Part shown: piece after piece, positions 51,296 to 62,077 of the stretch | How positions within the stretch are numbered: the stretch's first letter is position 1 | Layout: every line of letters starts with the position of its first letter | Assembly: GCA_019636755.1 (NCBI GenBank) | Contig: JAHBWZ010000002.1 | Location: 124,001 to 188,000 of the forward strand | Length of the DNA stretch: 64,000 nucleotides | From: Phycisphaeraceae bacterium | GTDB lineage: Bacteria > Planctomycetota > Phycisphaerae > Phycisphaerales > SM1A02 | Reading direction: 5' to 3' | Translations under genes and position numbers: made by a program | The notes under the pieces: model-generated | The model's input: the letters and a program-made list of their open reading frames with translations, nothing else | Databases searched by the model: none | What the model was told of the DNA's origin: nothing

Positions 51296-51518
51296 CGGGC
51301 CTCTGGAATGTGAGGCAAGCGATGGGATGTGAGGCGGGGCTGGACCAGGCCGGGCATGCCTCGCGGCCCGACGGGGCGCGGTTGCACCCCCCATCCGCCG
51401 CTCGCCTCCCGAATTCGGCGCCGCGACGCGCGCAGATTGCGGCTGTACAGGTATCGGTCACCATTGCGACGGCATGCGCCACGGGGCGCTGCCCGACCAG
51501 CCGCGAAAGGACGCGTCG
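51296..51518. other. leader region of the lipoprotein/CHAT operon
   Basis: About 220 bases upstream of the four-gene operon. It contains a purine-rich stretch and GAAAGG (51505-51510), eight bases before the ATG at 51519. A promoter is expected here; GTACAGGTAT near 51449 is the only -10-like string noticed. No gene was seen. Confidence 0.4.
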
Positions 51519-53285
51519 ATGAGCATCGTGATCCACCGCCTCCAGCGCCCCGCAATGACAGCCCTGCTCTCCGGGGTCCTGATGACCAGCGGCTGTGCCA
51601 ATGTCCAGAGGCAGATGGAGCGCGTCGCGAAGGACTGGTGCATGACTATCCGCGCGAGCCAGGTACTTCCGGTCTATCCGCTGACGGAGGACCTCCAGCC
51701 CGGCGACGTCTTCATGGTGCACGCCTCGATTCACGACCAGGCTCGAGAGTTTCGGCGGAGGGGATTCCTCGCACTCGACCAGCACGCGACGCGCCTGCAG
51801 ATCCCTGATGAGTACGCGGCCTTCTATGCAGACGCCTTTCTCCAAGGCTTCGGAGGGACCGGGCCGGTCGTGCGACCCGGCATGCCCGGAGGTGCTGCGT
51901 GCGGCTCCGGACGACCGGAAAACGCCACGATCACAGGTGCACCTGCGAACCCTGGCGGTGACCCGGACACCACCCGGCGCGATGACGACCCGGCGCATGG
52001 GCAGGACTCGACCGCGGCCGACGCTGCTCCGTCGACCAGCCTGGGCCGGCACCTGCTGGTACCGCTGCCTGCGGCGCAGTTCCCGACATACACGTTCGTA
52101 GTGAGCCGGTCGGCCGGCCTGCGCACGGCGCTTCCGATCAAGGGGATCCCGACAGGCCTGCGCGCACTGCGCGCGGACAATGCCCGCGGCTCCGTCGTCC
52201 TTCGAGACGCCTTCACCTATGGACTGCCGGGCGACGTCCTGCTCAGCCATCTGCACACGTGGGCATCAGACACCGACGTCCAGCACGAACTGGCGCGACT
52301 CAAGCAGAGCGTCGGGCACGCATCCGTCTTTCTGCGCGTCGTCAACCGGGTGTACCTGGTCGGCGGCGTCACTGTCCTGCTCGAGGCCCGCACCGGCGCG
52401 GGTGTCAGCGTCGAAGCCGGACTGGCCCAGCCGATCAACCTGCTGACGACCCGCACGGACGATCTCCAGCGGATGCTCACGAACGCCGAGCTGCTGTCGA
52501 AGATCCGGGCGGAACTCGGCGGCTCGATGAAGGCACCCACAGTGGATGAGCGCGGAACTCTCCGCGTGGGGGCAACCGCGGCGTTCGCGGAAGCCTCGGA
52601 GCGATCCGTCGTCCTCAATGAGGATTTCGATCGCCTCCAGGTGATCGGCTACCTCGGCTTCGATGTGGAGATCCTGGAAGGCGGCGTGCTCGGGCCGGCG
52701 GTCTCGACGCTGTACCACCTGTCCTCAGACGGTACGCGCTCTCTCCTGGCGCCGGCTGCCGGTTCGACGGCAGCACTTTTCCAGTTGTCTGCGATCAGCG
52801 GCGCCCTCGACTCGCTGGAGAATCGCAGCCGCAGCGGTGATCGGGAGGCGAGAGAAGCAGTCCGCGCCGCCGCGCAACTGGCCGCGCTCGCGCCAAAGAG
52901 GTTTCACTGGCCGATCTACGAGTTCGTGAATGCAGATGACCTGCCACTGCTGCGCATCGAAAAGCATGCGGGTACAGCGGTCGACGGGACCGGTGCACGC
53001 CGGCTGCTCGACTTTCTTGGCCTGCTGGACACGTCCGTCTCTGGCCTCGAAGAGGCGCTCGATCTCCTTCAGCGATGTGAGTCGATCAGGCTCGAGGGGA
53101 CAGGCGACCAGATGGTGACTGTCGGTCCGGGCCAGGGCGGTCAGGGCCAGTTCGACCGGGTCCGGCGTCAACTGGAGAAGAAGCATCAGGCCCAGGTGGA
53201 TCTGCGAGCACGGATCGCCTCCCGGATGATCATCAGCCCAGGCTACCGACGTCTCATTCATGCCGCCTTCCAGATCATGGAGTAG
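51519..53285 (+). CDS. lipoprotein of unknown family, first gene of the CHAT/transglutaminase operon
   Basis: A 588-residue predicted lipoprotein. MTALLSGVLMTSGC gives the lipobox at about Cys26. A first region to about 110 has a helix-strand pattern (EDLQPGDVFMVHASIHDQ). A Gly/Asp/Thr-rich linker (about 110-170) follows. The large second region has LGRHLLVPLPAAQFPTYTFV, FTYGLPGDVLLSH and several amphipathic helices. I recognise no domain. GAAAGG eight bases upstream supports the ATG. The next ORF starts five bases after the stop, and CHAT-like and hydrolase genes follow on the same strand, so it is probably the envelope-anchored part of one machine. Confidence 0.7.
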   Translation: MSIVIHRLQRPAMTALLSGVLMTSGCANVQRQMERVAKDWCMTIRASQVLPVYPLTEDLQPGDVFMVHASIHDQAREFRRRGFLALDQHATRLQIPDEYAAFYADAFLQGFGGTGPVVRPGMPGGAACGSGRPENATITGAPANPGGDPDTTRRDDDPAHGQDSTAADAAPSTSLGRHLLVPLPAAQFPTYTFVVSRSAGLRTALPIKGIPTGLRALRADNARGSVVLRDAFTYGLPGDVLLSHLHTWASDTDVQHELARLKQSVGHASVFLRVVNRVYLVGGVTVLLEARTGAGVSVEAGLAQPINLLTTRTDDLQRMLTNAELLSKIRAELGGSMKAPTVDERGTLRVGATAAFAEASERSVVLNEDFDRLQVIGYLGFDVEILEGGVLGPAVSTLYHLSSDGTRSLLAPAAGSTAALFQLSAISGALDSLENRSRSGDREAREAVRAAAQLAALAPKRFHWPIYEFVNADDLPLLRIEKHAGTAVDGTGARRLLDFLGLLDTSVSGLEEALDLLQRCESIRLEGTGDQMVTVGPGQGGQGQFDRVRRQLEKKHQAQVDLRARIASRMIISPGYRRLIHAAFQIME

Positions 53286-53290
53286 CACCG

Positions 53291-53479
53291 ATGCCGCTGC
53301 AGGAACAGACAGGGTACATCAAGGACTCCAGGCCCGACCTGACGACGCGCGAGAAGAACGCCGAACTGGGCGCACGCCTTCAGATCGCGCCGTGGAACGG
53401 CCGCGACATCGTGAGCATCCATCGACTGGAGATCCGCGTCAGAGGATGGGAGGTCAGGTACAGGACGGGGTCGATCTGA
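53291..53479 (+). CDS. small ORF between the lipoprotein and the CHAT-like gene
   Basis: A 62-residue protein, MPLQEQTGYIKDSRPD at its start and VRGWEVRYRTGSI at its end. It begins five bases after the lipoprotein stop. It has no signal sequence or known motif. The tight spacing supports a real gene, but 150 bases separate it from the next start, so a chance frame is also possible. Confidence 0.4.
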   Translation: MPLQEQTGYIKDSRPDLTTREKNAELGARLQIAPWNGRDIVSIHRLEIRVRGWEVRYRTGSI

Positions 53480-53628
53480 TGGGCAGGCGTGCGAGGCGAT
53501 TGCCGCTCGAAGGTGGCGCGCCTCGAAGCGAATGGACATCCCTGGCGACGAGAGCGCTGTCGAACGACTCGACAAACGCTCCGGCCGTCGGCATACCGCT
53601 GAGCCTCAGGGCTTCATGAGAGTGCAGT

Positions 53629-55935
53629 ATGGCAATCAGGAAGAAGACCCGAGTGAGCAGAGGCAAAGTGACGAAGGCGACCGCCTGGATCCAGCCCGAG
53701 GGCAGGGAGCGGATCCCGCTCGAGGTGCCCACGTCTCTCCCCGGTATCGCGTGGCGCTGGAACTACTCGCTGCACAACCGCAGTCGATGGACCGGCCGCG
53801 ATGACGCGCTGGCGCGACAGCGCGAACAGGTGAGGGACCTGGTGTCGCAACTCGGCCTGACCACCGAGCACCTGACCAGCATCGCGGAAGCCGGCCTGGT
53901 CGAAGTCGGCATCTCGTGGCGCAGTGAGGCCCAGGACTGGGCGCTGCGCATCCTTCCATGGGAATATGTGCTGTCCACCGCAACACAGGACCTGCGCCGC
54001 GGACATGGCGATGAGTTCGTGGTCGTGCGTTGCCTGCGGCGAGAGGCGCCTCAATCGGCCGAGACGAGTGCTGTCCTGGTCTACGTCGAGAGCGCTCCAC
54101 CGGGTGTGGTCGCCGACCACTTCGACTTTGAGGCCGAAGAGCATCTCGCGCGCCAGGCGGCCGACCTCCTCGGTCTGCGCTTCGAACTGGTAAGGAACCC
54201 TGGCCTGACGACCCTGCGCAATGCCGTGATCGAACACGCTCCACGACTGGTTCATGTGACCGGCGTGGATCTTCACCAGGGCCGCCAACTGCGCGGAGGG
54301 GAGGCGCCCGCCAGGCAGGTCGAAGAGCCCGTACGCGAGGATGGCATCGTCCTGACAGGGCCAGGAGGGACCGAGACCGAATTCAGTGCCGCGGATCTGG
54401 CCGCGGCCCTCTGTGCGGGCAAGTCACGTCCTGACCTCGTCTGCTTCAATCTGCACAACTCCGCGTCACGCATCGCGGCTCTGACCGTAGCCCAGGGCGC
54501 CGGTGCGGCCATCGGCTTCCAGGACACGTTCGACGACGCCATGGCCGAACGCTTCTTCTCGACGTTCTACCGCGGCCTCTCGATCTCCGCGTGGAAACTG
54601 GCAGCGGCCTTCCGCTTCGCCTGGCAACAGGTCCGCGAGAGCAGGCGACCGCTGACCGGGACCGGACTGGTGCTCTGGAGCGGCACGGCGCTGGCGAAGC
54701 GCGGCAGGGGCGCAGGCAGGAGCGCGGCAGATGCGAAGGGCATCGGTGAGAAGTGGAGAGGCGTCGCCACCCGCACGGTCAGCGCCAGCACCGCCGCCCA
54801 GTACCTGGCCGTCACCGTCGAGGATGTGCCCGAACTCAACTACTCGATGCTGCACAACGGCCGCCCGCTGTTCCGCAGCTTCCGCATCGACAAGCGCGCC
54901 CAGGACATCGGCGAGGTTCGGGACATCGACGTCGATGTGACCCTGCACCTTGGCGCCGACGCCGCCGGGTTCCGCGAGCGGGTCACGATTCCCGCCACGG
55001 TCAATGGCATCGACATCGCACACCGTGTGCGCGTCTCGCTGGCCGGGGCGCTCGGCCGGGCGCTGCGAGAAAGCGTGCGCACGAGCCTGCTGGTGGAGGT
55101 GCGCTATGACGACACGGTGCTGTTCCGGGAGACGCGCTGGGTGCGTTTCCTGGCCGTGGACGAATGGGAGGACTCCGACACGAACCGCAAGTGGCTCCCC
55201 TCCTTCGTCCTGCCGCGCGATCCCGCGGTGGCGCAGGTGATCAGCAACGCACAGCGCTACCTCCAGGCGCTGTGTGACGACCCCACGCAGGGGTTCGACG
55301 GGTACCAGTCAATCCAGGACGGCGACCACGGACCCGATTGCACGAACGTCGACCTCCAGGTGCAGGCGATCTGGTGCGCCCTGCTGTACGAGACACCGCT
55401 TGCCTACATCAACCCGCCTCCGACCTTCACCGACTCCTCGCAGCGCCTGAGGACACCCAGCGACGTGATCCTGGGTGGACGTGGCACCTGCATCGACCTG
55501 GCCCTGCTGATCGCAGCCTGCCTGGAGTACGTGGAGATCTACCCGACCATCGTGCTGCTCAGGGATCATGCGTTCCCATGCTACTGGCGCTCGGACAGTG
55601 ACTATGAGGACTTCGCGCTGGCGCGCTCCGATGCCGTCGATCGCAGCGCTGGGGATGCACAAGTGAGTCTCGCCGGCGCGGCTCAGACCGAGAGCTGGTG
55701 CCTGCTGCGGGAGCACTACCGCGAGGTCATGGGTGAAATCGCCGGCGGTCGACTGGTCGCGATCGAGTCAACCGGCCTGTGCTGGCGACATGGCTTCGGC
55801 ACCGCCTGCGAACAGGGGCACGCCAATCTGACACGTCGCACCCGGTTCGACTCCATGCTCGACATCCGCGCGGCGCGGATCGACCGCAACCGTGTCACGC
55901 CGCTGCCACTGCTCAGGACGGAGAACTGCCGATGA
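53629..55935 (+). CDS. CHAT-like domain fused to a transglutaminase-like domain
   Basis: A 768-residue cytoplasmic-looking protein. Residues about 130-350 resemble a CHAT (caspase-like) domain: RLVHVTGVDLHQG, LVCFNLHNSASRIAALTV, AAIGFQDTFDDAMAE and FFSTFYRGL. In active CHAT proteases those positions read HFxGHG and NACxS; here both the His (in GHG) and Cys positions differ, so the domain looks inactive. Residues about 400-530 are beta-rich. Residues about 600-670 resemble a transglutaminase core: GRGTCIDLALLIAACLE (Cys621), RDHAFPCYW (His647), with an Asp nearby. Its stop overlaps the hydrolase ATG by four bases. It may bind through the CHAT fold and act through the transglutaminase site. Confidence 0.65.
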   Translation: MAIRKKTRVSRGKVTKATAWIQPEGRERIPLEVPTSLPGIAWRWNYSLHNRSRWTGRDDALARQREQVRDLVSQLGLTTEHLTSIAEAGLVEVGISWRSEAQDWALRILPWEYVLSTATQDLRRGHGDEFVVVRCLRREAPQSAETSAVLVYVESAPPGVVADHFDFEAEEHLARQAADLLGLRFELVRNPGLTTLRNAVIEHAPRLVHVTGVDLHQGRQLRGGEAPARQVEEPVREDGIVLTGPGGTETEFSAADLAAALCAGKSRPDLVCFNLHNSASRIAALTVAQGAGAAIGFQDTFDDAMAERFFSTFYRGLSISAWKLAAAFRFAWQQVRESRRPLTGTGLVLWSGTALAKRGRGAGRSAADAKGIGEKWRGVATRTVSASTAAQYLAVTVEDVPELNYSMLHNGRPLFRSFRIDKRAQDIGEVRDIDVDVTLHLGADAAGFRERVTIPATVNGIDIAHRVRVSLAGALGRALRESVRTSLLVEVRYDDTVLFRETRWVRFLAVDEWEDSDTNRKWLPSFVLPRDPAVAQVISNAQRYLQALCDDPTQGFDGYQSIQDGDHGPDCTNVDLQVQAIWCALLYETPLAYINPPPTFTDSSQRLRTPSDVILGGRGTCIDLALLIAACLEYVEIYPTIVLLRDHAFPCYWRSDSDYEDFALARSDAVDRSAGDAQVSLAGAAQTESWCLLREHYREVMGEIAGGRLVAIESTGLCWRHGFGTACEQGHANLTRRTRFDSMLDIRAARIDRNRVTPLPLLRTENCR

Positions 55936-57296
55936 GTGGACTGGAGATTCAGCAGGCTCGCCGCGCGCTGGCTGCCATCAGCACTGATGCAGAGGCGCTT
56001 GACATCTTCGGAGGCGAATCATCGGCAGCCGGTCCGCCGGGCACCGCGGCCAGGCGCCGCACCACGCGTCGCGGCCTCGCCGATCCGGTACAGCGTGCCG
56101 CGCTCTATCTCAACGAACAGGGCGTCCTGGAGTGGCGACTCAATCCTGCGCCGCCCTCTGCGCTGACCGGGCGCCGTGCCGCGGCCGCCGTTTCCGCGGC
56201 GCCGGGGGAACTGGTCGAAATGTTCGAGTTCAACGCGCCCGGCGTGAACCAGGTCACCGAGTTCCTTGATCGCACCGACCAGCACCTCAACTCGCGGGCA
56301 GCAGGCATGCCGGCGGGCAGCGGGCGGCCTCGCGCCATGTCGCGTCTCTGGCGACTGTCGCCCGGCACCAGCAACGCCGGTCCGCGGTACGAGGCACTGG
56401 AGGAGCCGCCCTCCGGCAGGAAGCATCGACTGCTGCTGGTGCACGGCACCTTCAGCAGTTCACAGGCGCTTCTCGATGGGTTCGCACGCGCAAAGACGGA
56501 GCGATCATTCCTGGACCGGGTGTTCCGCACGTACGACGAGGTGCTGGCCCTCGAGCATCCCACGCTCTCCGTCAGCCCGCTGATCAATGCGCTTGACCTG
56601 CGCGATGCGACCGCCCGCATCACCGGCCCATTGGACGTGATCGCGCACAGCCGCGGCGGCCTGGTGACGCGGTGGGCACTGGACGGTCTCGGCCTCTCTG
56701 CATCGCCTGTCCGCGCAGTCCTGGTCGGCGCGCCCCTGGGAGGAACCAGCCTGGCGGCGCCGGACCGCCTGCGCGCCACGCTCGGCCTGCTGAGCAACTT
56801 CGGCACCGCACTCCAGGCGGCCGGTGGCGTGGCCAGTGCATTTGTGCCGCTGCTGATCGCGCCACTGGCCATCCTGCGTGTGGCCACCAGCATCGTCGGC
56901 ACAGCGGCGCGCACACCAGTGCTGGATGGCGCCATCGCCATGGTGCCCGGCCTCGCGGCGCAGTCGCGGGTCGAAAACAACCCGGAACTCGGTCGTCTCC
57001 TTCGACGTGGGCCGCGCGCCGATACCGCGTACGCATTGGTCTGCAGCGACTACCAGCCCAGTGATGCCGGCTGGCGATTCTGGCGCTGGTTCCGCAAGGG
57101 CCGCATCGCCAATGCCGCCGCGGACGTCATCTTCCCCGGCCCCAACGACCTGGTCGTCGATACCGCCTCCATGAGCTCGCTCGAGAGTGCCGTCGTGCGC
57201 CACGACTTCGGCCGCAGCAGCACCGTGCACCACATGAATTACTTCGAGCAGGACGAGACGCTGGCGTTCATCAGAAAGCGATTCGGGATCCGATGA
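55932..57296 (+). CDS. alpha/beta hydrolase (lipase-like), last gene of the CHAT/transglutaminase operon
   Basis: A 454-residue protein without a signal sequence. A 160-residue N-terminal region with no known motif precedes the hydrolase fold. LLLVHGTFSSSQALLD is the oxyanion loop, DVIAHSRGGLVTRWAL holds the nucleophile (Ser240, G/A-x-S-x-G), PGPNDLVVDTASM is a probable Asp segment, and STVHHMNYFEQDETLAF a His segment. Two hydrophobic stretches near residues 300-330 could reach the membrane. Its ATG overlaps the previous stop by four bases. Lipid or ester substrates are likely. The pairing with a CHAT-like protein is the unusual part. Confidence 0.78.
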   Translation: MSGLEIQQARRALAAISTDAEALDIFGGESSAAGPPGTAARRRTTRRGLADPVQRAALYLNEQGVLEWRLNPAPPSALTGRRAAAAVSAAPGELVEMFEFNAPGVNQVTEFLDRTDQHLNSRAAGMPAGSGRPRAMSRLWRLSPGTSNAGPRYEALEEPPSGRKHRLLLVHGTFSSSQALLDGFARAKTERSFLDRVFRTYDEVLALEHPTLSVSPLINALDLRDATARITGPLDVIAHSRGGLVTRWALDGLGLSASPVRAVLVGAPLGGTSLAAPDRLRATLGLLSNFGTALQAAGGVASAFVPLLIAPLAILRVATSIVGTAARTPVLDGAIAMVPGLAAQSRVENNPELGRLLRRGPRADTAYALVCSDYQPSDAGWRFWRWFRKGRIANAAADVIFPGPNDLVVDTASMSSLESAVVRHDFGRSSTVHHMNYFEQDETLAFIRKRFGIR

Positions 57297-57563: not shown

Positions 57564-58010
57564 ATGCGAGGAGCGATACCTGAAGTGACTCGCCAGCGCG
57601 TCACCGAGTATTCGGTCGTCGCCACAGGCCCGGAATCCGCGGGCCCGGTCGTGTTCGTGATCTCCGCCACCTCTGAGGAGGAGGCTCGGCTGGAAGTCGA
57701 AGAGATGGGGTATGTCGTTCGAATCATCCGGGTCGAGCCGCGCCGCCCGATGCGGATGGCGGCGAACACGGTCGGATGCGTGCTGCTGGCGGCGTTCTTC
57801 GTCGTGCTTCGCGAGATTGTCCAGCATGCGGCGGGTCCCGGACCGAACCCGCTCATGCTGCTCTTCTCATGGCTTACGATGACCATCGCGACGTCGGCAC
57901 TGGTCGGCGTTCTCCTGATCTGGTTTCCGCACCTGACAGCAACCCGGTGCAGCAGTCGCCATCGAACCCGTCCAGTACGATACGGACCACCCCAATCGGA
58001 GCGGGCGTGA
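57564..58010 (+). CDS. small membrane protein
   Basis: A 148-residue protein of unknown function. A cytoplasmic-looking N-terminal domain has VFVISATSEEEARLEVEE then MGYVVRIIRVE, a short fold also seen ahead of membrane helices in other proteins. Two hydrophobic helices follow (about 71-92 and 96-121), then a basic tail. GAGGAG at 57568-57573 would suit an alternative GTG start at 57585. The stop is two bases before the SEC-C gene, so the two are probably in one operon. The 267 bases before it (57297-57563) hold no gene I can recognise. Confidence 0.55.
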   Translation: MRGAIPEVTRQRVTEYSVVATGPESAGPVVFVISATSEEEARLEVEEMGYVVRIIRVEPRRPMRMAANTVGCVLLAAFFVVLREIVQHAAGPGPNPLMLLFSWLTMTIATSALVGVLLIWFPHLTATRCSSRHRTRPVRYGPPQSERA

Positions 58011-58012
58011 CC

Positions 58013-58891
58013 ATGAAGGCATATCAGCAGGCAGCAGGGCGACATACGCGTCTTCGGACATTCCGATTCGACGCCGACGGGCGCGCGACGCACTGGATCC
58101 TGAAGGACCAGTACTGTGACAATCCGCGCTGCACCTGCAAGGATGCCGGAATCGCGCTTCAGGCCGAGGGTGAGCCGGACCGGTGCATCCGTTTCATGAT
58201 GGGCCTGGCCGAGTGCACGCTCTCGCACTGCCCGAACCTCGACGAATCGCTGCTCGCCATCGCGCGGGAGTTCGCGAGCCGTCCGGAGGTCCATCGGCTG
58301 CTGTGGCGCCGCCGGTCGATCGTGCGGGCCTGGGCCCTTTCGCGCTGGCGGCACCACGGACAGGCTGGCCTTCGCGCGGGGGCCGGGTGCTGTGCGTTGG
58401 ACGAGTTCGATCCGCTCGGTGAACAGCACGCCATGCACTTCAAGTCAGGCGGCAGCGACTGGGGGGCGATCGACCAGTACTGCGTCAATCCGGCCTGTTC
58501 GTGCAGCACCGTGATCCTGCACTTCACGCGCTACACGTCGGCAGTGGTTGCGCATCACCCGCAGTTCGTCGCGCGACTCGATCTGATCGACGGAACCCTC
58601 GTCGACGCCGATTCCTCGGAACCTCTGCCACCCGACCAGCGGCGCGTCGTCGCGGACTTTCAGGATGAGATCGACCCCTGGCGCGACGAACTCGGGCTGC
58701 GGCGCACGCTGATCCGGCGCATCGCCGCCCTGCGCATGACCGCGCCGCCATTGATCGAGATCGTCGCGCCTGCCCAGCGCAACGCCCCCTGTCCCTGCGG
58801 CAGCGGCCGGAAGTACAAGAAGTGCTGCGGCGGCCGATCAACCGGCGGCCGGTCAACGAGCGGCAGCGCCTGGTCATCAATCGGGTGCTGA
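58013..58891 (+). CDS. SEC-C motif protein with an internally repeated cysteine motif
   Basis: A 292-residue cytoplasmic protein. The zinc-binding SEC-C motif RNAPCPCGSGRKYKKCC lies at about 256-272. Two copies of DQYCxNPxCxC occur at residues 32-42 and 154-164, each preceded by a WxxxD segment, so the N-terminal 200 residues look like a duplicated Cys-rich domain. SEC-C motifs are found in SecA and many small proteins and bind zinc. The start ATG at 58013 follows the membrane protein's stop by two bases. The role is unknown; a zinc-dependent protein-protein or nucleic-acid contact is likely. Confidence 0.7.
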   Translation: MKAYQQAAGRHTRLRTFRFDADGRATHWILKDQYCDNPRCTCKDAGIALQAEGEPDRCIRFMMGLAECTLSHCPNLDESLLAIAREFASRPEVHRLLWRRRSIVRAWALSRWRHHGQAGLRAGAGCCALDEFDPLGEQHAMHFKSGGSDWGAIDQYCVNPACSCSTVILHFTRYTSAVVAHHPQFVARLDLIDGTLVDADSSEPLPPDQRRVVADFQDEIDPWRDELGLRRTLIRRIAALRMTAPPLIEIVAPAQRNAPCPCGSGRKYKKCCGGRSTGGRSTSGSAWSSIGC

Positions 58892-59248: not shown

Positions 59249-59839
59249 TCAGCCTTCCGATGACGCCCGGTTCCGCCACAGCGCGGGATCCACGGCGGTT
59301 GCCATCGCCGACAGGTCCAGTCCGCCGCCCAGGAAGGCGCCGATGCGCGCCGACTCGCCCGCCGGATCGCCCACCACGTCGGCGTACCTGACATCCAGCA
59401 CGCGGAAGCATGGATGTACGGCGAGATGCCTGCGGACCGCAGCCACCTGCTGCGCGAACACTTCGCGCAGGCGATCGTCCGGCAGCCCCGCGCCCGGTCG
59501 GCCGCGGCGACGCAGCATGACGGACTGCGACCGGATCACCTCCGCCGGATCGCGCTCCACGAAGAGCACCCTGTAGTCGTGCTCAAGCGGGAGGTCCTGC
59601 AGGAGCATGTGGATGACCTTGACCGCGTGCCCGGCGGCGTGGGCCAGCCATGACGCATCGTCGCGCAGGTGCTTGACCCGCTCATCCTCGAAGTAGCCGC
59701 GTGGATTGTCCGGATCTGCCGTCCGTCGCTCGTCGGTCACGACCGGCATGCCGCCTGCCTGCAGCATCTGCATCACGAGACTCGTGCCGGACCTGGGAAG
59801 CCCGCTGACGATGGTGATGAAGCCCCGGGCGCGGGTCAT
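59249..59839 (-). CDS. sulfotransferase family protein
   Basis: A 196-residue P-loop protein of the sulfotransferase superfamily. The N-terminal motif IVSGLPRSGTSLVMQML is the 5'-phosphate-binding loop, and VLFVERDPAEVIRSQSVM is the 3'-phosphate-binding region. The protein is shorter than classic enzymes but matches a bacterial group of small sulfotransferases. Its ATG at 59839 overlaps the stop of the phosphodiesterase by four bases (ATGA), so translation is coupled. It would sulfate a partner product, perhaps a glycan or lipid handled by the phosphodiesterase. Confidence 0.83.
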   Translation of the reverse strand: MTRARGFITIVSGLPRSGTSLVMQMLQAGGMPVVTDERRTADPDNPRGYFEDERVKHLRDDASWLAHAAGHAVKVIHMLLQDLPLEHDYRVLFVERDPAEVIRSQSVMLRRRGRPGAGLPDDRLREVFAQQVAAVRRHLAVHPCFRVLDVRYADVVGDPAGESARIGAFLGGGLDLSAMATAVDPALWRNRASSEG

Positions 59840-61935
59840 GAGGCGCGCCCCGGCGTGCCGGCGGCATGCCGCGCGGCCCACTGTGCTGCATCCGTCGCCG
59901 GCATCAGCGTCTCACGCGCATCTGGCTCGATCGACGACGCCGCGGACAGGTGCGCCACCCGCGCCTCATGCGCCCCGGCACGGTCCATGTCACCCTGCTC
60001 CCGGGCGATCGCCGCGAGGAAGCGGTGCGCCATGATCCAGCCGGGCTCCAGCCGCAGCAGCATCTCGAGTGACTGCGCCGCCTGCGCCGGTTCCTCCATC
60101 CACGCGAGCGCGACACCCAGCAGGAAGTGTGCCTCCGGCAGCCGAAACCGCTGCTCCATGGCATCCAGGCAATGCTCCGCGGCACGTTCCCACGCCGCAC
60201 GCGCCAGCGCCACCCGCGCCATCCCCACGTGCGCGGGACCTGCCGTCGCCGGATGTCCGATCGCCTTCCGGTACATCCGCGCCGCCTCATCCCACTGGCC
60301 GCGCACTGCCCGCACGTCAGCGATCGCCAGCGCGATGGCGGGCCGGTCGGCCTCCCGCCGCGGGATTGCGTCAAGGTCTGCGTCGCTCGCCGCGCCGTCG
60401 CCCGCCTGTGCGCGGGCCGCCGCCCGAAGCAGGAGCGCCTCGGCGTTCCCCGGCGCCCGCGCCAGCAGGCGCGTCGCCTCCGCCGCGCAGTCCAGCGGTC
60501 GCCCGGCCATCATCAGCGCGCGCGCCAGCACCAGCACATACCGCGACTCCCCGGGGTGACCGGCGACGAGGGGTTCCATGATCTGCGCGGCGTCGGCCGC
60601 ACGTCCCCGGTGCAGCAGCGAGACGGCGCGATTGAATTCGGTCTCGCGCCGGACCAGTTCGATCTGCTCCTGCCGGTCCTCCGGCAGGTCCGCCATGTAT
60701 CCCAGGTCGATCAGCTGCCGGATGGCGTCATGCGCCTCGAACGGGTCCTGTCGCAGGTCGGCGGGGTGCATGCCCGCGTCCCCCTCGGCATCCTCCCACG
60801 TCGGGATCGTCCGGACCGATGCAGCCTGATCGATCGCCTCGGTCAGCACGCGTCCGTCCATGTCCTGGCCGACCGGAAGTCCGAGCAGGGTCAGCGCGGT
60901 CGGCGCGATGTCCAGCAGCGTCGCGCCGCGCACGGTGCCGCCCGGCGCGATGCCCGGGCCGTGCACGACGAGGATTCCCTCGCTGCGATGCCACGCCGCT
61001 TCCGTGGCCGCGCGCTGCTCCGGCGTCATGGTCGCCGTCACCGGCCGCTCGTCGCCGCTGTGAAAGCCGTGGTCCGACAGCAGCATCAGCGTGACATCGT
61101 CGCCGGCTGCGCGCAGGAGTTCGCCCAGCATCCGGTCATGCAGGCGATAGATCGCGTCCATGACGCCGCCGAAGAGTCGATGATCCTCTGGCGACACGTG
61201 CGCCGGCCTGGGCGCCCGGTACTGCATGAAGTGGTGACCCACCGTGTCGATCGCTTCCTGAAAGATCATCGTGCAGTCCCACCGGTCGCCGGTCGCCAGG
61301 AGGTGACAGGCGACCTGGTGCACGGAGAGGCACTGCGCGATCAGTCGCGCCAGCAGTTCGACCGTCGGATGGTCGCGGCCCAGCCGTCCCATCTGCGGGA
61401 CGAGTTCCAGGAGCACCTTCGCGCTGACCGCCGCGGGGTGGACGCGACGGCTCGCGATCTCCTCCGCGCGCTCCGCCGGATGGACGCATCCCGGCGGCAG
61501 CGGCCAGCCCGCGCGCGCGGATGCCGGAGCGCCTTCCATCAGGAGGTTGGACACGACGACGCCGCGCACCGGTTCGGCCGGATGCGTGGCGTACCAGCTC
61601 ACCACGTTGCAGGTGAGCCCCGCCTGCGTGCACATGTTCCACAGCGCCCGCGTGCGCCGGCTGGTGCTGGACGAGAGGCGGAGTCCCGCACCGGACGGCT
61701 CCGGCTCCACGAAGTTCAGGATGCCGTGCCGGTCGGCCGTCCGGCCGGTCGCTACGCTGGTCCAGAGGAGCGGCGAGAGTTTCGGTTCGAGTGTCGACAG
61801 GTCGCCGGTCACGCCCGACCGGATCACGCGCGCCAGCGTCGGCATCGCCCCCCGGTCCAGCAGCGCCCGAAGCACGATCCAGTCCGCGGCGTCCCAGCCC
61901 AGGATCAGCAGGCGCCGCGCTGGTCGACCCATCAT
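59836..61935 (-). CDS. alkaline-phosphatase-superfamily phosphodiesterase with C-terminal TPR
   Basis: A 699-residue protein. Residues about 8-400 form an alkaline-phosphatase-fold (type I phosphodiesterase/nucleotide pyrophosphatase) domain. LILGWDAADW gives the first metal Asp, LSPLLWTSVATGRTADRHG the nucleophile loop, FQEAIDTVGHHFM more metal ligands, and LMLLSDHGFHSGDE the closing Asp-His pair. Residues about 450-660 form TPR-like helices with HFLLGVALAWMEEPAQAAQSL. There is no signal peptide at the likely starts (61935 or 61932), so it may act in the cytoplasm. It is coupled to a sulfotransferase gene. A substrate such as a glycolipid phosphate is possible but unproven. Confidence 0.85.
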   Translation of the reverse strand: MMGRPARRLLILGWDAADWIVLRALLDRGAMPTLARVIRSGVTGDLSTLEPKLSPLLWTSVATGRTADRHGILNFVEPEPSGAGLRLSSSTSRRTRALWNMCTQAGLTCNVVSWYATHPAEPVRGVVVSNLLMEGAPASARAGWPLPPGCVHPAERAEEIASRRVHPAAVSAKVLLELVPQMGRLGRDHPTVELLARLIAQCLSVHQVACHLLATGDRWDCTMIFQEAIDTVGHHFMQYRAPRPAHVSPEDHRLFGGVMDAIYRLHDRMLGELLRAAGDDVTLMLLSDHGFHSGDERPVTATMTPEQRAATEAAWHRSEGILVVHGPGIAPGGTVRGATLLDIAPTALTLLGLPVGQDMDGRVLTEAIDQAASVRTIPTWEDAEGDAGMHPADLRQDPFEAHDAIRQLIDLGYMADLPEDRQEQIELVRRETEFNRAVSLLHRGRAADAAQIMEPLVAGHPGESRYVLVLARALMMAGRPLDCAAEATRLLARAPGNAEALLLRAAARAQAGDGAASDADLDAIPRREADRPAIALAIADVRAVRGQWDEAARMYRKAIGHPATAGPAHVGMARVALARAAWERAAEHCLDAMEQRFRLPEAHFLLGVALAWMEEPAQAAQSLEMLLRLEPGWIMAHRFLAAIAREQGDMDRAGAHEARVAHLSAASSIEPDARETLMPATDAAQWAARHAAGTPGRAS

Positions 61936-61998
61936 GGCGGGATCGTACACGGACGAGCTTGCGCACCGCACGGTCGCGGTCGCGTTCCGTCGCAGGAC

Positions 61999-62035
61999 AA
62001 AAAGGATCGGGGGCGGTCCGAAGACCGCCCCCGAT
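61999..62035 (-). terminator. rho-independent terminator for the PEP-CTERM gene
   Basis: On the minus strand, ATCGGGGGCGGTC, a UUCG loop and GACCGCCCCCGAT form a perfect 13-bp stem, followed by CC and TTTTT. It lies 43 bases after the stop of the PEP-CTERM gene and before the phosphodiesterase start. This is the strongest terminator seen in the window. Confidence 0.9.
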
Positions 62036-62077
62036 GTCATGCATTCTCAGACAGGAGGGTCCTGTCGTGTCGCGTCA

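Follow-up and report, generated by a model that had tools for sequence, protein, structure and literature searches.

Organization of the locus

We have analyzed a stretch of 64,000 nucleotides, here called the window, from a Phycisphaeraceae bacterium with a 4.1 Mb assembly of Planctomycetota type. Four open reading frames, A to D, lie in it on the same strand (Table 1). The spacing is 5 bases between A and B and 149 bases between B and C, and C and D share an ATGA overlap, so that the coordinates bear out the co-directional arrangement described in an earlier note, made from the letters alone. Gene A has a further in-frame ATG at 51474. In all four frames the GC content was highest at the third codon position (0.79 for A, 0.84 for B, 0.82 for C and 0.78 for D, the last value taken on the longer ORF), which is consistent with coding. 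No prominent sigma-70 promoter or terminator was found within the locus.

Downstream of D, the window contains a gene for a protein with a C-terminal SEC-C motif (58010-58891), and nothing seen in other genomes ties this gene to the C-D pair. On the minus strand, positions 59836-62040 code for a protein that joins a type I phosphodiesterase domain to TPR repeats, adjoined by a sulfotransferase-like gene (59249-59881).

Table 1. Genes and catalytic positions of the locus, in window coordinates.
Feature	Positions	Strand	Description
A	51519-53285	+	588 aa lipoprotein; neighbour, probably outside the system
B	53291-53479	+	62-aa small ORF; probably outside the system
C	53629-55935	+	768 aa; pseudo-CHAT, beta-rich module and transglutaminase-like domain; core gene 1
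D	55932-57296	+	454 aa from the ATG; DUF7379 lipase-like alpha/beta hydrolase; core gene 2
CHAT His/Cys motifs of C	54253-54537	+	residues about 209-214 and 270-303; His and Cys absent
Transglutaminase-like catalytic residues of C	55489-55769	+	C621 (RGTCIDLA), H647 (DHAF), E713 (VAIEST)

Protein C, a CHAT fold that has lost its catalytic residues

Protein C is composed of a CHAT/caspase fold, a beta-rich module and a transglutaminase-like (TG) domain, in agreement with the CHAT-like/transglutaminase fusion proposed before. Its residues 105-341 matched the Pfam CHAT family (PF12770) with 23.5 bits in the protein search, just below the cut-off of 24, and C gave 25.9 bits against the same family in the genome scan. 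The DUF553 transglutaminase-like model of Pfam matched very weakly. The structure predicted with AlphaFold2 from four sequences was good at about residues 149-350 (the CHAT core) and about 390-505 (the beta-rich module), and poor in the TG part. The best fold match of the core was SAVED-CHAT (PDB 8tl0), with a Z of 18.0 over 184 residues and an rmsd of 2.7, and caspases gave Z values of about 11-12; the structure prediction that had been suggested for this protein thus places its core in the CHAT/caspase fold. Profile-profile comparison with canonical CHATs (seven CHAT domains from DUF7379-linked proteins) gave a probability of 97.9%. When solved structures were searched by sequence, none was found for C.

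The catalytic positions tell a different story from the fold. Both the His and the Cys of the CHAT active site are substituted in the alignment of all 11 full-length C homologues. Where active CHATs have HFAGHG, C has HVTGVD, and FNLHNSA takes the place of LNACQxG; in the profile-profile comparison both fall opposite the active-site motifs of the seven CHAT domains. Since these positions are lost in the 11 homologues, we ruled out that C is an active CHAT protease, and its earlier description as a CHAT protein holds for the fold and fails for the catalytic residues, missing across the whole family. The Cys-His-Glu triad of the TG domain is invariant in the same homologues (11/11), and by its sequence the transglutaminase-type active site of C is intact.

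Protein D, a lipase-like serine hydrolase

Protein D matched DUF7379 (PF24096) with an E-value of 2.6e-29 and 103 bits, the cut-off being 33 bits. The motifs HGTFS and HSRGG are conserved, and the C-terminal NDLVVD and HH motifs were present in all the complete copies (copy L068 was counted in its correct frame). The structural model, of low confidence and confident for the hydrolase core only, resembled in that core BlEst2 and CALB lipases with Z values of 11-13, and the search of solved structures by sequence yielded weak lipase matches only. We assign D to the DUF7379 serine hydrolases, of lipase-type fold: profile, nucleophile motifs and core fold all agree with the lipase-like hydrolase read from the letters. 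Besides, about 21 residues around position 300 of D form a hydrophobic segment, whose mean Kyte-Doolittle value is 1.5-2.0 in ten sequences. We found no literature on DUF7379.

C and D travel as a pair

We searched for C among the relatives of this bacterium, its phylum and the orders of two members of the Pseudomonadota, and found 11 full-length genes; a twelfth, in genome G093, is interrupted by a contig end and lies outside this count. In 10 of the 11 genomes D comes directly after C on the same strand, and the ends of the two genes usually overlap or nearly touch, so that the conserved neighbourhood to be looked for, according to the earlier note, does recur. The divergences of C and D are correlated (r 0.85, 36 pairs), as expected of linked genes. 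In the sole exception, G026, C is found alone and a DUF7379-CHAT fusion is located elsewhere in the genome. There, L036 5967-10004, on the minus strand, codes for a 1345-aa DUF7362-DUF7379-DUF7363-CHAT protein, which might act as a stand-in for D.

The carriers of the pair range from Planctomycetota to Burkholderiales and Xanthomonadales, that is, at least two phyla. In the tree, the pair of the window was sister to the copy of a Lysobacteraceae MAG and then to that of a Methylibium MAG, with 100/100 support. Identity to the Pseudomonadota copies was 57-70%, against about 40% within its own family, where the relative is a contig titled Phycisphaerales bacterium HKST-UBA08. Being closer to Pseudomonadota than to copies of the same family, the window pair has probably been transferred horizontally, to judge from these sequence comparisons. 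The contig that carries the Methylibium copy measures 131 kb; that of Lysobacteraceae has only 4.9 kb, so a binning error is possible for the copy in it. No copy of C was found in phage and viral records, and the plasmid collection contained the ProA-type module only (see below), with no full-length C.

Genes A and B, probably unrelated to the pair

A carries a lipobox-like signal. It had no match in Pfam, PADLOC or PHROG, and a single insignificant one in NCBIfam. Nine other genomes have a homologue of A, a weak one in one case, and the surroundings are unrelated each time: none of the nine loci adjoins C or D, and the other ten C genes are without A. The family (window, L034, L035 and L132-L137) is made of Planctomycetota lipoproteins that share the motif YP(L/P)..D(V/L)(Q/R/E)PGD(V/L/I)F and belong to no Pfam family. 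In genome G048 the A homologue is followed by another alpha/beta-hydrolase gene, which has a weak Palm_thioest match and none to DUF7379. For B, no family match was found in Pfam, NCBIfam, PADLOC or PHROG, and tblastn gave no match beside any other C-D pair. Because the A loci are never beside C or D and B has no relatives there, both genes most likely just adjoin the pair and have no part in it. The four-gene system including the lipoprotein, as first envisaged, was rejected in view of the stand-alone family of A and of the lack of B relatives next to other C-D pairs.

DUF7379 and caspase-fold partners

We examined the strong DUF7379 genes of a sample of the Planctomycetota phylum and found a caspase-fold gene fused to them or next to them in 8 of 9 cases. 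The partners were mostly CHAT, with Peptidase_C14 in G128 and pseudo-CHAT in the window and in G228; the exception was G145. One example of fusion, L172 6047-8662 (minus strand), codes for an 871-aa protein in which a canonical Peptidase_C14 caspase is joined to a DUF7379 hydrolase. On a megaplasmid of Ruegeria pomeroyi (NC_006569.1; L139 7473-14277), a DUF7379-CHAT fusion is located directly before the Septu genes PtuA and PtuB. This PtuA includes SIR2_2 and AAA_21 parts, and the arrangement is possibly an extended Septu. In the literature, our search gave nothing of use on CHAT paired with a lipase or hydrolase, nor on Septu together with CHAT.

As to the C-D pairs themselves, defence-like neighbours were apparent in two genomes only, G460 and G813. 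In G460, SoFic and PDC-S06 genes lie close to the pair. In G813 (L118 1451-13678) it is clustered with two more genes of lipase type, an abhydrolase gene and a Tle1-like phospholipase gene; the cluster also includes a QatA-like KAP NTPase (1137 aa) and a 580-aa protein without a Pfam match. The neighbourhood in the window and most of the C-D loci do not have the appearance of defence islands, and the PADLOC models gave no match to C or D.

Comparison with known systems

There is a precedent for the pairing of a caspase with this kind of hydrolase. In VMAP systems that have a caspase domain a neighbouring alpha/beta-hydrolase gene is always present, and in the MoxR-vWA ternary conflict systems many of the caspases at the effector position are inactive (Kaur et al., 2020, doi 10.7554/eLife.52696). 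C-D resembles them in that a caspase-superfamily protein is paired with an alpha/beta-hydrolase gene, but it consists of two genes only and its inactive CHAT is fused to the beta-rich and TG module. No MoxR gene (PF07726) was found near the pairs of ten genomes, the closest one on the contig of the window being about 143 kb away, so we discarded that the pair belongs to a MoxR-vWA ternary system.

A second set of relatives are the single proteins in which a DUF7379 hydrolase, the family of D, is fused to a CHAT or Peptidase_C14 partner (L036, L139, L170, L172, L174 and L176). In contrast to C, the His and Cys of the active site are retained in the DUF7379-fused CHATs whose two motifs can both be read, and no beta-rich and TG module was reported in these fusions. 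SAVED-CHAT also differs from C, which has no visible SAVED domain and has lost the catalytic pair.

The third likeness concerns the other half of C. Residues 404-670 align to positions 1-253 of the NCBIfam model NF058533 with an E-value of 8.4e-51. This model of DUF4011 helicases is named 'anti-phage protein ProA' by NCBIfam, and the N-terminal beta-rich and TG module of these helicases is homologous to that of C. ProA-like proteins are of about 1900-2000 aa and have helicase and MTES_1575 nuclease domains, whereas C has the pseudo-CHAT instead. C itself was rejected as a ProA: it scored 172.7 bits against a cut-off of 1500, and the best stretch covers positions 1-253 of 1903. One ProA-type DUF4011 helicase matched PDC-S37 and Hhe of PADLOC. 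A literature search on ProA found nothing relevant; for DUF3320 there was a paper on the HEPN superfamily, and for DUF4011 with phage defense a gene that merely flanks a hotspot.

The earlier note knew of no described system with this exact make-up. That must be corrected as far as the pairing of caspase and alpha/beta hydrolase goes, already described (doi 10.7554/eLife.52696), and it stands in that the combination itself is only partly precedented. Probably, C-D is a variant of the described pairing with a combination of its own that is undescribed.

A putative conflict module

Our preferred reading, to which we give a probability of roughly one half, is that the two genes form a mobile module for biological conflict, directed most likely against phages, with C as sensor-regulator and D as killer. 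It would probably work by abortive infection, the pseudo-CHAT/TG protein controlling a lipase that attacks the membrane; this function we infer from the features described above. The linkage and correlated divergence of C and D, their spread across phyla, the lost CHAT and retained TG residues, the module in common with ProA-type helicases, the caspase-fold partners of DUF7379, the defence-like neighbours of a few loci and the pairing described by Kaur et al. (2020) speak for it. Against it speak the lack of PADLOC matches, the loci that mostly do not resemble defence islands, the lack of copies in phage and viral records and of a full C on plasmids, the C without D in G026, and the low confidence of the TG and D models. 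C would be a cytoplasmic protein whose pseudo-CHAT domain binds a trigger or a partner, and the TG-like cysteine-hydrolase domain would be its active enzyme. D would be the killer serine hydrolase, its hydrophobic segment probably meeting the membrane, and lipids or acyl groups would be hydrolysed. Upon infection, C might release or activate D by cleavage, by modification or by changed contacts, and once D is active the cell would stop or die. That C and D interact, which of them controls the other, that D acts on lipids and that phage is the trigger are all deduced rather than observed. A further proposal, which we consider unlikely as it stands, is that C-D is an undescribed two-gene immune or cell-death relay in which the pseudo-caspase, a sensor that does not cleave, would license a TG-type protease that would then switch on a membrane lipase, the protease module being the one common to ProA-type helicases.

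It is also possible, though we doubt it, that C and D serve housekeeping or the stress response, for example in envelope lipid turnover or in a slow death or developmental programme with no phage trigger, in which the pseudo-CHAT would be a peptide-binding scaffold. The location of the loci mostly outside defence islands, the lack of PADLOC matches and a family that is rare and widely scattered agree with such a role. However, the patchy distribution with apparent transfer across phyla, and the module that C has in common with ProA-type helicases, suit conflict systems better.

The control might also run in the opposite direction: C would then be the toxic enzyme, of the TG type (a protease, a deamidase or a crosslinker), and D would either regulate it or be another effector that acts independently. 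The invariant Cys-His-Glu triad would fit, as would the action of TG-type thiol peptidases as effectors in related systems. We find this improbable: the motifs of D are conserved to the same degree, and the caspase-fold partners with which DUF7379 is repeatedly found are very unlike each other, suggesting that the effector common to all is the hydrolase. A single envelope-directed system of the four genes, with C localised by lipoprotein A or cutting it, is very improbable in spite of the shared strand, the short gap between A and B and the hydrolase gene next to the A homologue of G048 (not a DUF7379), given the separate distribution of A and the 149 bases that lie between B and C.

Returning to the conflict module, if the proposal is right C-D would be related, in a minimal form, to the caspase/alpha-beta-hydrolase conflict systems, its caspase having become a pseudoenzyme to which another protease has been joined. 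A caspase-derived pseudoenzyme is known in animals, c-FLIP. DUF7379 emerges as a lipase family that has been wired recurrently to caspase-fold proteins. The pair is small and testable, and the roles of pseudo-caspase, TG protease and lipase can be separated. Beyond the pair, C hints at a possible role for the N-terminal module of ProA-type helicases.
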